64,000 nt of DNA, taken from NCBI GenBank assembly GCA_024276075.1, contig JAJRXX010000019.1:1-64000 (forward strand). The letters run 5' to 3'. Under the pieces are notes generated by a model, which did no database searches, was not told where the DNA came from, and worked only from the letters and a program-made list of their open reading frames with translations. Below are positions 23,824-44,160 of the stretch, one piece after another (within the stretch, counting starts at the first letter, position 1; each line of letters opens with the position of its first letter). This DNA is from Planctomycetota bacterium (lineage in GTDB: Bacteria; Planctomycetota; Phycisphaerae; Phycisphaerales; Phycisphaeraceae). Made by a program: the position numbers and the translations under genes.

Positions 23824-24351
23824 TCAACCCGCTCCAAGCTTCAAGCGACTTGCCCGTTTTTTTTTGATGATCCCGCTGGCTCTGGCAATAGGGTATGAAA
23901 CCACATGGTTGTCGTTGTAAGCAATGCTTATGTATTGGCCGCCACAGTCTTGGAGCTTGGTGAAAACCGCCACGCGTGTAGCGTCGACGTCATCCGTTAA
24001 GCCGGGAACAAGAACGTAAGACGTGTGTTCGTTCACCCACTTGCGTTTCTGTTCGTCCGACCAGCTTTCGATATCGGCTGGCGAGGTTTTGCCTACCAGA
24101 GGAGACAACACATACTCAATAGGGACGATGTCATTGACATAGAGCGTGCCGATGTCGTCTGGAAACCGAGAATCGGCCCCATATGCGTAAAGTATACACC
24201 CTTGATGTATAAGTCTTACATGAGTATCGCTTTGCAATAATCGTGAGAGATGGGTATCGCGGCGGTGTGAACCAAGCGACGGGAGCAAGACCCCGACTGC
24301 TGACACCGCCAGAATCGTTAACACCACCCCCACGAATATCTTCTTAATCAT
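23824..24351 (-). CDS. Pseudopilin-like membrane-anchored protein
   Basis: 175 residues with one N-terminal hydrophobic helix (IFVGVVLTILAVSAVGVLLPSL) followed by LSRLLQSDTHVRLIHQGCILYAYGADSRFPDD. This pattern resembles the helix and first turn of the many prepilin-like proteins of planctomycetes, which usually have LLPALxxAR and a C-R-Q-hh-YA motif; the closing AYNDNHVVSYP resembles their C-terminal DGHV element. The usual prepilin cleavage motif is not evident, so it may be a derived, non-assembled relative. Assignment tentative. Confidence 0.55.
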   Translation of the reverse strand: MIKKIFVGVVLTILAVSAVGVLLPSLGSHRRDTHLSRLLQSDTHVRLIHQGCILYAYGADSRFPDDIGTLYVNDIVPIEYVLSPLVGKTSPADIESWSDEQKRKWVNEHTSYVLVPGLTDDVDATRVAVFTKLQDCGGQYISIAYNDNHVVSYPIARASGIIKKKRASRLKLGAG

Positions 24352-39640: not shown

Positions 39641-40891
39641 ATGCCGCACCCATCACACGAAACATCCAATACCAGCACCCCCGACACCAGCCAAACCGTG
39701 CGTTTCGCCGCAGCGATCAGTGACGCTACGCACCTCACCACCGCAACCGACCAGGTCATCGACCAGCTCAAGCAACAGCTCGCAGGCCCGGCTGACCTTC
39801 TGACGGTTTTCGTCGCCGGCGAACACTGCGACGCGCTTTCAGCGATCTATCACAAGCTCAATCAAGCATTCGCACCCGCCGCTGTGATCGGCGTCACCGC
39901 GGGTGGGATCATCGGCCCCGGCCGTGAGCTTGAGGGTGAAACGGGTATCAGTGTCCTGGCCGCTCGGCTACCGGGCGCACACATACAGCCCATTAATTAC
40001 AACGCCGACCAGTGGAAATCCATACTCGCGTCCGACCAGACACTGGGCAAAACCATCGAGTCACGCGACCAAAAGCTAAAAGCCATCATCATGCTTGCCG
40101 ACCCCTTTAGCACACCCATGCTCAACCTCCTGCCGACCATGACACGTTGCTGGCCCGGTGTGCCGGTCGTCGGAGGCGTCGCCAGCGCGGGTAAAAAGGC
40201 GGGGCAGAACCATCTCCTGGTCAACGGCCGAGTCCTGCAAACGGGGGCTGTCGGTGTCGCCATCTCCGGCGATATCGACGTCACGCCCACCATCAGCCAG
40301 GGGTGCCGACCTATCGGTCAGTCATTTGTCATCACCAAGTCCCAACGGCACATCATCTACGAGCTTGGCGGGCGCAACGCTTTGGTAGCCATTCAGGACT
40401 TAGCCGAACAGCTCGACGAATACGACCGCGACCTCATACAAACCCGAGGGCTCATGATCGGGCGTGTCATCAACGAGTACAAAGACCGCTTCGGGCGCGG
40501 CGACTTCCTGATCCGCCAACTCCTGGCTATCGATCAGGACTCCGGATACATCGCTGTCAACGACCCCCAAATCCGCGTCGGACAAACCGTCCAGTTTCAC
40601 GTACACGATCAGAAAACAGCCATCCAGGACTTCAAGCTCCTACTCGACGCCCAAGAGCTCCACGGGCCAGGCGCAGGGGCACTGCTGTTTTCATGTAATG
40701 GGCGAGGCTCCAACCTTTTCGACGAGCCCAATACCGACTCAAAGCTCGTCTCCCAAGCGCTGGGCGACATACCCTTGGCCGGCTTCTTTGCTGCAGGCGA
40801 AATCGGACCCGTAGGCGGCGAAAACTTCCTGCACGGACACACCGCAAGCCTCATCGTCTTCCGCGACGCGCACAGCCAAGCAAAGGTGTGA
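39641..40891 (+). CDS. FIST-domain sensory protein
   Basis: 416 residues covering FIST_N (about 20-210; VIGVTAGGIIGPG, VPVVGGVASAGKK) and FIST_C (about 215-400; GAGALLFSCNGRG, and PLAGFFAAGEIGPVGG). Known: FIST domains are predicted small-molecule (perhaps amino-acid) sensors, often linked to signalling proteins. Here it stands alone with no kinase or receiver attached. The cysteine in FSCNGRG is a conserved feature. Confidence 0.9.
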   Translation: MPHPSHETSNTSTPDTSQTVRFAAAISDATHLTTATDQVIDQLKQQLAGPADLLTVFVAGEHCDALSAIYHKLNQAFAPAAVIGVTAGGIIGPGRELEGETGISVLAARLPGAHIQPINYNADQWKSILASDQTLGKTIESRDQKLKAIIMLADPFSTPMLNLLPTMTRCWPGVPVVGGVASAGKKAGQNHLLVNGRVLQTGAVGVAISGDIDVTPTISQGCRPIGQSFVITKSQRHIIYELGGRNALVAIQDLAEQLDEYDRDLIQTRGLMIGRVINEYKDRFGRGDFLIRQLLAIDQDSGYIAVNDPQIRVGQTVQFHVHDQKTAIQDFKLLLDAQELHGPGAGALLFSCNGRGSNLFDEPNTDSKLVSQALGDIPLAGFFAAGEIGPVGGENFLHGHTASLIVFRDAHSQAKV

Positions 40892-41193: not shown

Positions 41194-41616
41194 CTATGCA
41201 GCGCCCGCCTGTTGATCGTAACCTTCAATGATGAAATTGATCACCTTCTGTAGCGCATCGCGCCATTGCTTCTCAAGCGCGGGCGTCCATTGGCTATCCA
41301 TCTCGGCCATCGCCTTAATGAAGCTATCGAGCCAATACGGGTACAACGCCGGCGGAATGTCGAGCCTTCCCTTTTGGTGGCTATCCCTGATCCGACCGAT
41401 CCCGCTGACCCCGATCGTATTACCCGCAGCGAACATGATCGCCAAGTTCACGCCCTGACGCAGCAGCTTCTTCTGCGCCTCCAAATCGGTATTGACAAAC
41501 CGAGGCCCAATCGCTGGGTTACTCGCCAAAAATATATCGTAAAACCGCCCAAAAAAATCACCCTTGGTTGTCACTCGGCCGAAGCTCGCCTGGATATCAG
41601 AAATGTCGATGCCCAT
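41194..41616 (-). CDS. Bacterial globin
   Basis: 140 residues with a single globin fold. Proximal (F8) histidine H80 in RIRDSHQKGRL; Phe in the CD region (RFVNTDLEAQKKLL); C-terminal H helix WRDALQKVINFIIEGYDQ. No reductase domain, so a stand-alone oxygen- or NO-binding globin. Upstream (41617-41874) lies A+T-rich sequence with the inverted pair TGATCT / AGATCA near 41662-41688, a possible operator. Confidence 0.85.
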   Translation of the reverse strand: MGIDISDIQASFGRVTTKGDFFGRFYDIFLASNPAIGPRFVNTDLEAQKKLLRQGVNLAIMFAAGNTIGVSGIGRIRDSHQKGRLDIPPALYPYWLDSFIKAMAEMDSQWTPALEKQWRDALQKVINFIIEGYDQQAGAA

Positions 41617-41874: not shown

Positions 41875-42243
41875 TCACCCACCCATCAACTGATCCATTC
41901 CCGGTAGCCCCTGCAGGTTTAGCCCACCGGTCAGGCGCGACATCTCCTGCGCGACCAGTTCACGCGCCTTATTCAGCGCCGCGTTGCTCGCCGCCGCGAT
42001 CAGGTCCTCGATCATCTGCTGATCCGCATCCGCACCCTCACCCGCCAGCGTCGCAATCAACGGACGATCCAGATGCACACTCACAATCTCAAGTTTCCCA
42101 TTCGCTACCACGCGCACCGCGCCAGCACCGGACTCCGCCTCCACCGTTCGGCGAGCCAGGTCTGCCTGCAACTGCCCCATTTTTTCCTTCAACTCCTTCG
42201 CCTGTCCCAAAGCCGCAGCCATGTTCTTGAGATTACCTAACAT
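41875..42243 (-). CDS. ybaB: YbaB/EbfC nucleoid-associated protein
   Basis: 122 residues: N-terminal helix with AAALGQAKELKEKMGQLQAD, then GAGAVRVVANGKLEIVSVHL and C-terminal helix ALNKARELVAQEMSRLTGGL and a Gly-Leu-Pro-Gly tail. Binds DNA as a dimer. It follows dnaX by 39 bp on the same strand, the conserved dnaX-ybaB arrangement; recR, which often comes third, is not present. Confidence 0.9.
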   Translation of the reverse strand: MLGNLKNMAAALGQAKELKEKMGQLQADLARRTVEAESGAGAVRVVANGKLEIVSVHLDRPLIATLAGEGADADQQMIEDLIAAASNAALNKARELVAQEMSRLTGGLNLQGLPGMDQLMGG

Positions 42244-42282: not shown

Positions 42283-44160
42283 TTAGTCCGTATTGTCGTT
42301 AGGCTCATCGACACCGACAGGCACCTCGGCCCCAGGCGCCTGCCGCACACCCACAAGCGTCGTGTCAAATACCTTAGCCGCCTGCTTAACCAATCCCAGC
42401 GCCATCGCACGATCGCGATCAACCGTCGACAGCGCCCTTGTCGGCGAAGCCCCCGGTGAGGCTACGGGTGCCACGCGCCCCACCGACACACCGCCACGCT
42501 CCCCAGCAGATCGGCCATTCCCAGCCGCCGACGCAGCACCGTCATCCGCAACCATCGCTGATCCACCGCCGCCAGCGGGGGCATCGAGTTCCACTCGCAC
42601 CGGCCTACCCAGCAGCGATTTAAATATCTCAGAAAGCTGCTTACGACGCTGGTCATTGACAAAACCAGCCAAATGATCGTGCCCCGGCCCCGTGGCCAGC
42701 CTCGCCGTGTCGCCGTCGATCTGCCTCAACGTCAGGTGTCTTGCCCACGCCATTGCGGGTTTATCGCCTACCACGGTCAGCACGCTAGCCCATACATCCG
42801 CAGGCGTCGCGCCAACAGTGCTCGCCCCCTGTCCACCATTGGCAAAACGATCAATCGGCGGGGCATAAGACGCCCTGCTGTCTACTTTTTTTTTTGTTTG
42901 AGACGTCGCCGCACCACCGCCCGCCACGGGCGCCGGCACCCTGCCAGACGTCAGTAGCGCCGTAACGTCCGCCATTTTTTCCGCCAACGCCAGCCGTACC
43001 ACCGCAGCGTCCAGCAGAGCCAACGGGTTCGCACTCACACGCAGCGATCGCCCCACTCCTTCGCACAACGCGATCATGTACACCAAGCCCGGCGCATCGA
43101 ACCGCTTCGATTGCTCGACTGCAACGGCTCTCGCTTCGTCGGGTAATTCGACCAACTCACTTTCAGCACCACACGCTGTGATGAGCATCAACTGACGCAG
43201 GTACTCGATCAACACCTCGAGCAACTGATCCTGCGACGTGCCCCGTGTCAACAATTGGGCTGTCCGCTCCAATGCAGCACCAGCGTCGCCGTCGGCAAAC
43301 GCGTCCACCAAATTGACGATCAACTGCTGATCCGGCAGCCCCAGCGTCTCTTCGAGCAACTCTACTGTGAGCATCGCGTTCGCCGCTGCGGGTTTTTCCC
43401 CCTTCGGTTCCTTTTTCTCCTGGGCGCCTTCACCCGGGCCCGACGCCGCGATCAAGCGGTCCAGCAGGCTCAGCGCATCGCGCATCGACCCGTTACCCAA
43501 CCTCGCCACCTGCCACACCACGCCCTGATCCGCAGCGATCCCCTCGCTTTTGAGTACCGCCGTCAGGTGTTCCGCAATCGCCGCTGTCGCGATATTCCGG
43601 AAATCAAACCGCTGACACCGCGACTGGATCGTCGCAGGCACCTTGTGCGCCTCCGTTGTGCACAAGATATATTTTACATGCTCCGGGGGCTCCTCCATGG
43701 TCTTGAGCAACGTGTTAAATGCATCGGACGTGAGCATGTGCACCTCGTCGATGATGTAGACCTTAAACCTCGCGTTGCCTGTCGGTGCCAGCCCCGCGTT
43801 TGCAATCAATTGACGCGCCTCCTCCACCCTTCGATTAGAAGCGCCGTCGATCTCGATCACGTTTAGGTCATCGCCGCGCATCACCGCTTGGGCCATCCGC
43901 TGCTGCACATCCTTCGGCGGATACTCGTGCTCGCCGGGCAGCCGCGGGCAGCCCGGCACCGCGTCCGGCGCGTTCAGCGCAGCGGCAAAAATTCTCGCCA
44001 TCGACGTCTTGCCCACGCCCCGCGTACCCGTGAACAGGTACGCGTGCGCCACGCGCCCCGCACTGATCGCGTTTTTGAGCGTTCGCGAGATCGGCCCTTG
44101 CCCCACCACCTGATCGAAATCGGTGGACCGGTATCGCCGAGCTAAGACGGTATACGACAT
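42283..44160 (-). CDS. dnaX: DNA polymerase III subunit tau/gamma
   Basis: Clamp-loader ATPase. 625 residues from the ATG at 44160 (MSYTVLARRYR). Walker A GTRGVGKTSMARI near 43-55, Walker B IIDEVHML, SRC sensor QSRCQRFDF. The cysteine-rich zinc module that normally follows Walker A is absent: only one Cys remains (PGCPRLPG). Domain III ends near residue 350-380. At codons 422-425 lies a run of ten A, where slippage would end translation and give a gamma-length form. The C-terminal part is Ala/Gly/Pro-rich and then folds into a tau-like domain. Confidence 0.95.
   Translation of the reverse strand: MSYTVLARRYRSTDFDQVVGQGPISRTLKNAISAGRVAHAYLFTGTRGVGKTSMARIFAAALNAPDAVPGCPRLPGEHEYPPKDVQQRMAQAVMRGDDLNVIEIDGASNRRVEEARQLIANAGLAPTGNARFKVYIIDEVHMLTSDAFNTLLKTMEEPPEHVKYILCTTEAHKVPATIQSRCQRFDFRNIATAAIAEHLTAVLKSEGIAADQGVVWQVARLGNGSMRDALSLLDRLIAASGPGEGAQEKKEPKGEKPAAANAMLTVELLEETLGLPDQQLIVNLVDAFADGDAGAALERTAQLLTRGTSQDQLLEVLIEYLRQLMLITACGAESELVELPDEARAVAVEQSKRFDAPGLVYMIALCEGVGRSLRVSANPLALLDAAVVRLALAEKMADVTALLTSGRVPAPVAGGGAATSQTKKKVDSRASYAPPIDRFANGGQGASTVGATPADVWASVLTVVGDKPAMAWARHLTLRQIDGDTARLATGPGHDHLAGFVNDQRRKQLSEIFKSLLGRPVRVELDAPAGGGGSAMVADDGAASAAGNGRSAGERGGVSVGRVAPVASPGASPTRALSTVDRDRAMALGLVKQAAKVFDTTLVGVRQAPGAEVPVGVDEPNDNTD
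42886..42895 (-). other. A10 slippery run in dnaX, probable gamma-producing site
   Basis: On the coding strand ACA-AAA-AAA-AAA-GTA, codons 422-426. Loss of one A gives AAG-TAG, an immediate stop (425 residues). Gain of one A, or a -1 ribosomal shift, reads KKKSRQQGVLCPAD and stops at 42851-42853 (about 436 residues). E. coli and Thermus dnaX are known to make gamma by slippage on A-runs at the matching place. Confidence 0.75.

Follow-up and report, generated by a model that had tools for sequence, protein, structure and literature searches.

An A10 run in a planctomycete dnaX as a candidate site of programmed transcriptional slippage, and its counterparts across the Phycisphaerales

Does a dnaX gene from the family Phycisphaeraceae (Planctomycetota) encode one clamp-loader subunit or two, and if two, at which step of gene expression would the shorter one arise? 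The gene lies in the window, by which we mean the whole 64,000-nucleotide stretch that was analysed (positions 1 to 64,000 of contig JAJRXX010000019.1, assembly GCA_024276075.1). A reading of the letters without database searches, hereafter the sequence-only reading, had drawn attention to ten consecutive A's at codons 422-425 of this gene, near the end of the clamp-loader core, as a place where slippage could yield the short gamma form of DnaX beside full-length tau, and had left the choice between transcriptional and ribosomal slipping open. Here we compare the site with its counterparts in related genomes, and weigh the explanations for it against each other.

The A10 run and the reading frames around it

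The run is where it had been placed and is exactly ten A's long on the minus strand: the plus strand reads T10 over the interval, giving an uninterrupted A10 in the dnaX sense strand, and codons 421-427 read CAA ACA AAA AAA AAA GTA GAC (Table 1). Pfam assigns the AAA+ domain, lid and domain III to DnaX residues 21-398, and domain III thus stops close to the run, which begins 24 codons past its end and before the tau-specific part. The latter matches a profile of the C-termini of relatives with an E-value of 4.1e-44, the profile set including the window sequence itself. The gene downstream of dnaX is presumably YbaB/EbfC-like, a usual dnaX neighbour, and beside this pair stand genes that we take, likewise by eye, to encode a globin-like protein (41194-41616, minus) and a FIST-domain-like protein (39641-40891, plus).

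Table 1. Features of the dnaX locus, in window coordinates
Feature	Position	Strand	Basis
dnaX CDS, frame 0 = tau, 625 aa/codons	42283..44160	-	ORF and Pfam DnaX domains
Clamp-loader domain III (PF12169), last domain common to gamma and tau	42967..43362	-	Pfam
A10 run, candidate slippage site, codons 422-425 (ACA AAA AAA AAA)	42886..42895	-	kept site, 90/90 genes of the order
TAG in the frame after one A lost (or two gained); predicted gamma end at 425 aa	42882..42884	-	
TGA in the frame after one A gained (or -1 ribosomal shift); predicted gamma end at 436 aa	42851..42853	-	
Tau-only C-terminal part, ~200 aa	42286..42885	-	profile match to C-termini of relatives
Downstream gene, YbaB/EbfC family by appearance	41875..42243	-	by eye

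The expectation that a slip in either direction ends translation quickly also stands. An unslipped message encodes a protein with a computed mass of 65.7 kDa, a message with nine A's meets TAG directly (45.5 kDa, computed), and one with 11 A's meets TGA 11 codons on (46.6 kDa, computed), so that nearby stops, at 1 and 11 codons, close both alternative frames. In the window gene alone this closure is mildly unusual (p ~0.07 against its own synonymous reshuffles), and the -1 frame, at 11 codons, is open for longer than in most relatives. The window gene alone stays below significance; the strength of the case for slippage comes from the comparison with relatives.

Long A runs are rare in this genome. 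A pattern search of its 2.88 Mb found four A/T runs of at least 10 bases (three A10 and one of 19), and the dnaX A10 is the sole one within a long coding frame, the other three lying in no 100-aa frame or in an open stretch of ~106 codons. Of the 23 genomes considered, namely the window's own and those of relatives, 12 have no isolated A10 other than the dnaX run. The sequence-only reading had noticed no other run of this length in the coding regions of the window; a second long run, an A9 at 23857-23865 (minus), falls towards the 3' end of an ORF of 175 aa (23824-24351).

A slip-prone site in all 90 analysed dnaX genes of the order

Of 101 genomes from the same family and order, 99 gave a DnaX match, a few of the matches being weak and probably paralogues, and our analysis covers the 90 dnaX genes (window gene included) that have both the core and the site region. 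Each of the 90 has a site prone to slipping close to where domain III ends. In 64 genes this is a long A run (A10 in 52, A9 in nine, and A8, A11 and A12 in one each), and in the remaining 26 it is a 7-base heptamer (A7 in 18, G_GGA_AAA in seven, C_CCA_AAA in one). The sequence-only reading had named relatives with AAG codons breaking the run as evidence against slippage; instead, the nearest relative, at 60-65% protein identity, has kept exactly ten A's and, in the same alternative frame, the TAG; its 90-base flanks share 50-56% DNA identity with those of the window gene. In all compared pairs of close relatives the run length is equal, with 90-base flanks that are 49-79% identical. One gene (L019, genome G045) has an in-frame TAG at codon 106, within the DnaX core, which is probably an assembly or sequence error.

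We located the tau C-terminus with a profile built from genes whose frame 0 is open. Tau lies in frame 0 in 49 of the 90 genes, among them the window gene, which is not inverted; 39 others have it in the -1 frame, and two in the +1 frame. These 41 shifted genes all end frame 0 within 0-9 codons of the site, and on their sequences they are inverted, with frame 0 as the predicted gamma and tau dependent on a shift. The two with tau in the +1 frame, which carry A12 and A9, are beyond the reach of a -1 shift. Comparison of closely related pairs revealed that third codon positions change most in the shifted tau part (for example 20, 10 and 55 changes at positions 1, 2 and 3), and this part thus evolves as protein.

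Homopolymers mutate fast and many of these genomes are metagenome bins, which might suggest that the inverted frames reflect phase variation at the DNA level or assembly errors. We find this scarcely credible, since the run almost always holds exactly 10 A's, as in 52 of the 64 long-run genes, and since the inverted gene is common to several species of one genus and also occurs in genomes of one or two contigs (G003, G031, G039 and G060). The bias in codon positions within the shifted frames argues against it as well, as does the fact that dnaX is generally essential.

Some genes have short tau parts. Five genes of genus g34 (L160, L162, L164, L165 and L167) have G_GGA_AAA followed by GCC TGA and a -1-frame, tau-like extension of ~68-81 aa in which the usual tau C-terminal domain is undetectable, their tau frame being assigned only from conservation of this tail within that genus. 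In family f6 (L126, L128, L132 and L134) the tau extension is ~90-110 aa and matches only the last part of the tau profile.

Beyond the order, each of the five genes sampled from other parts of the class carries A9 or A10, with early stops in both alternative frames. In the other classes of the phylum most sampled genes are without a run, those with one comprising family f26, which has A9 or A10 throughout, and scattered others. Outside the class, L284 (family f11) has an inverted-type A10, where frame 0 stops at codon 386 and the -1 frame is open for 166 codons. Several genes of families f25 (L255, L260, L262 and L286) and f15 (L263, L275, L280, L287 and L296) have a DnaX frame that stops after ~386-452 codons, and neither an A run nor a recognised heptamer lies near its end; possibly they encode a gamma-only DnaX, or possibly they use slip sites of another kind.

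The run could also be without function, as a by-product of the KKK motif in a Lys-rich linker after domain III. The linker is poorly conserved, Lys-rich motifs are common, and most other families of the phylum manage without a run there; the absence of runs from much of the phylum, however, also means that a run is not unavoidable in the linker. We consider this account highly improbable because all 90 genes have a slip site despite a preference for other codons elsewhere: Lys codons lying wholly within the runs are AAA in 147 of 147 cases, as the definition of a run requires, versus 27% of the Lys codons elsewhere in the cores. Moreover, both non-tau frames are closed within 12 codons in 58 of the 64 long-run genes, versus 5.0 expected when codons are reshuffled synonymously with the protein kept, and the 41 inverted genes would be without any tau unless shifted, yet their shifted part evolves as protein.

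Slippage of the polymerase or of the ribosome

Frame closure also bears on the level at which the shift takes place. A slipping polymerase populates all three frames, and both non-tau frames should therefore stop early, whereas a -1 ribosomal shift uses two frames only, which makes it useless to close the third, defined here as the frame that a -1 shift never enters. The median open length of this third frame is 2 codons at long runs versus 59.5 codons at heptamers (Mann-Whitney p 5e-13, for species that are not independent and of which tree-based contrasts are few). This comparison is free of the selection that affects the partner (-1-related) frame: heptamer genes close only the latter, its short distance being partly by construction in the eight genes with heterogeneous heptamers, which were located back from the frame-0 stop, and leave the third frame open for 12 to >200 codons. 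Among the 43 long-run genes with tau in frame 0, 27 have a third-frame stop at codon 0 or 1, and in 19 the codon at the end of the run or directly after it is NTA, versus 0.63 expected. These NTA codons specify differing residues (GTA, CTA, TTA and ATA) and all give TAR in the third frame; NTA before a purine therefore places a stop in a frame that -1 ribosomal shifting never enters. On the other side, GTA, which follows the window run, is not rare in the gene (9 of 625 codons).

The two site classes also differ in the signals around them. SD-like motifs accompany 16 of the 26 heptamer sites versus 10 of the 64 long-run sites (p 5e-5), and the downstream fold, scored against shuffles, has a median z of -1.17 at heptamers versus 0.01 at long runs (p 2e-5). 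The heptamers are phase-locked, with 18 of 18 A7 sites starting at the third codon position, whereas the long runs use all three codon phases (46 in f1, 12 in f2 and 6 in f0). Slippage by E. coli RNA polymerase was undetectable on fewer than 8 A's (PMC6260861), a limit close to the boundary between our classes. A8 sites are ambiguous, one such record (L032) having an open third frame.

A faithful polymerase combined with E. coli-type ribosomal -1 frameshifting on A_AAA_AAA, ending at the TGA 11 codons on, would produce gamma from the window gene by another route. The slippery heptamer is indeed in frame, 26 genes of the order have heptamers with typical SD and stem signals, and AAA and AAG appear to be read by tRNA-Lys(UUU) alone, as a pattern search of the window genome found a single such tRNA and no CUU tRNA. 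Given this tRNA and the in-frame A_AAA_AAA, ribosomal slipping on the A10 is chemically feasible and could contribute some of the gamma; the tRNA content itself does not decide the mechanism. As the account of the window site, though, ribosomal shifting is improbable. A_AAA_AAG is absent, A_AAA_AAA being the only heptamer in frame (ACA AAA AAA AAA GTA); no SD-like motif was found in the 17-base upstream stretch scanned; and there is no downstream stem over the 55 bases after the run (z 0.0), where the sequence-only reading had likewise seen no strong one. Ribosomal shifting also leaves the third-frame closure of the long-run genes unexplained, and the long runs, unlike the A7 sites, occur in every codon phase.

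We therefore favour, with fair confidence, Thermus-type transcriptional slippage over a ribosomal -1 shift at the window A10, because the site lacks an SD-like motif and a stem and has the third-frame TAG directly after the run. Beside what is observed of the run, its position, its conservation and the closure of both alternative frames across relatives, the proposed mechanism would be as follows. RNA polymerase would slip on the A10 and release mRNAs whose runs hold 9, 10, 11 or more A's. Tau of 625 aa would be translated from the messages with 10 (or 10+3n) A's; those with 9 or 12 A's would run directly into TAG, and those with 11 would reach TGA 11 codons on, the latter two groups yielding gamma forms of 425-436 aa that comprise domains I-III. 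Gamma would presumably be used in the clamp loader, in some ratio to tau. We put the probability that programmed transcriptional slippage on the A10 gives the window dnaX both of its clamp-loader subunits at roughly 0.86. Gamma production by slippage, as first proposed, thus remains the best reading, now with a site in all 90 genes and both-frame closure in most long-run relatives behind it.

Switching within the order and relation to known systems

Changes along the phylogeny were counted on a quick protein tree, with the changes forced by supported branches as minima. Tau orientation changes 17 times on this tree (at least 9 forced) and site class 11 times (at least 8 forced). Of 8 independent contrasts, 7-8 show site class and third-frame closure changing together under nearly all pairings, and none shows them changing in opposite directions (sign test, median p 0.008). 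The families fall out as expected on the tree, and gene transfer therefore need not be invoked. Phycisphaerales dnaX has probably kept its tau/gamma output through at least nine switches of frame and at least eight of mechanism, with the third-frame stops changing in step.

The components of this picture have precedents. Transcriptional slippage in dnaX of Thermus thermophilus (Larsen et al. 2000, as described in PMC1088944 and PMC5009743) and inverted, two-ORF dnaX genes (Antonov et al. 2013, PMC3711429) are known already. According to those accounts, the Thermus gene resembles that of the window in having a long sense-strand A run past the clamp-loader core, tau in frame 0, and stops near the run in the two remaining frames, so that gamma results from every slip by other than a multiple of three bases. 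It differs in that its run is A9 rather than A10 and its phylum is another, and slippage at the window site is predicted from sequence. Antonov et al. describe 17 two-ORF genes from 12 genera, nine with 10 As, and their main text does not name Phycisphaera. The 41 inverted genes of the order, with frame 0 stopping just past the site and tau shifted, follow the same plan; the window gene does not, and its relatives switch repeatedly between plans within one order. In E. coli, dnaX undergoes -1 ribosomal frameshifting at A_AAA_AAG with an upstream SD and a downstream stem-loop (PMC5009743, PMC3711429). Gene, place and products (predicted, in the window) are the same, and the heptamer sites of 26 relatives, mostly of the inverted plan, have similar signals. 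Unlike the E. coli gene, that of the window has none of these three elements and closes a frame that -1 shifting never enters. A search pairing Phycisphaerae with dnaX found no paper in the library searched. The window gene is best read as a new example of the Thermus type, the occurrence of which appears to be class-wide, and what seems new is that the site is retained across an order in which the arrangement switches repeatedly, and that the third frame serves as a test of mechanism.

These data touch on the need for gamma, and on the route to it, in bacteria outside a few models. For annotation they carry a warning, as an ordinary gene call in 41 of the 90 genomes would stop DnaX just past the site and lose the tau part. 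That a whole class keeps a tau/gamma slip site, without which many of its species would be tau-less, argues strongly for selection on the dual output. The presence of probably transcriptional and apparently ribosomal recoding of dnaX in sister lineages makes a direct comparison of the two possible. If the proposed history of switching is true, one order provides a natural series in which two levels of recoding have replaced each other repeatedly, and whether the third frame is closed or open would serve as a sequence-only diagnostic of the level that a given gene uses.
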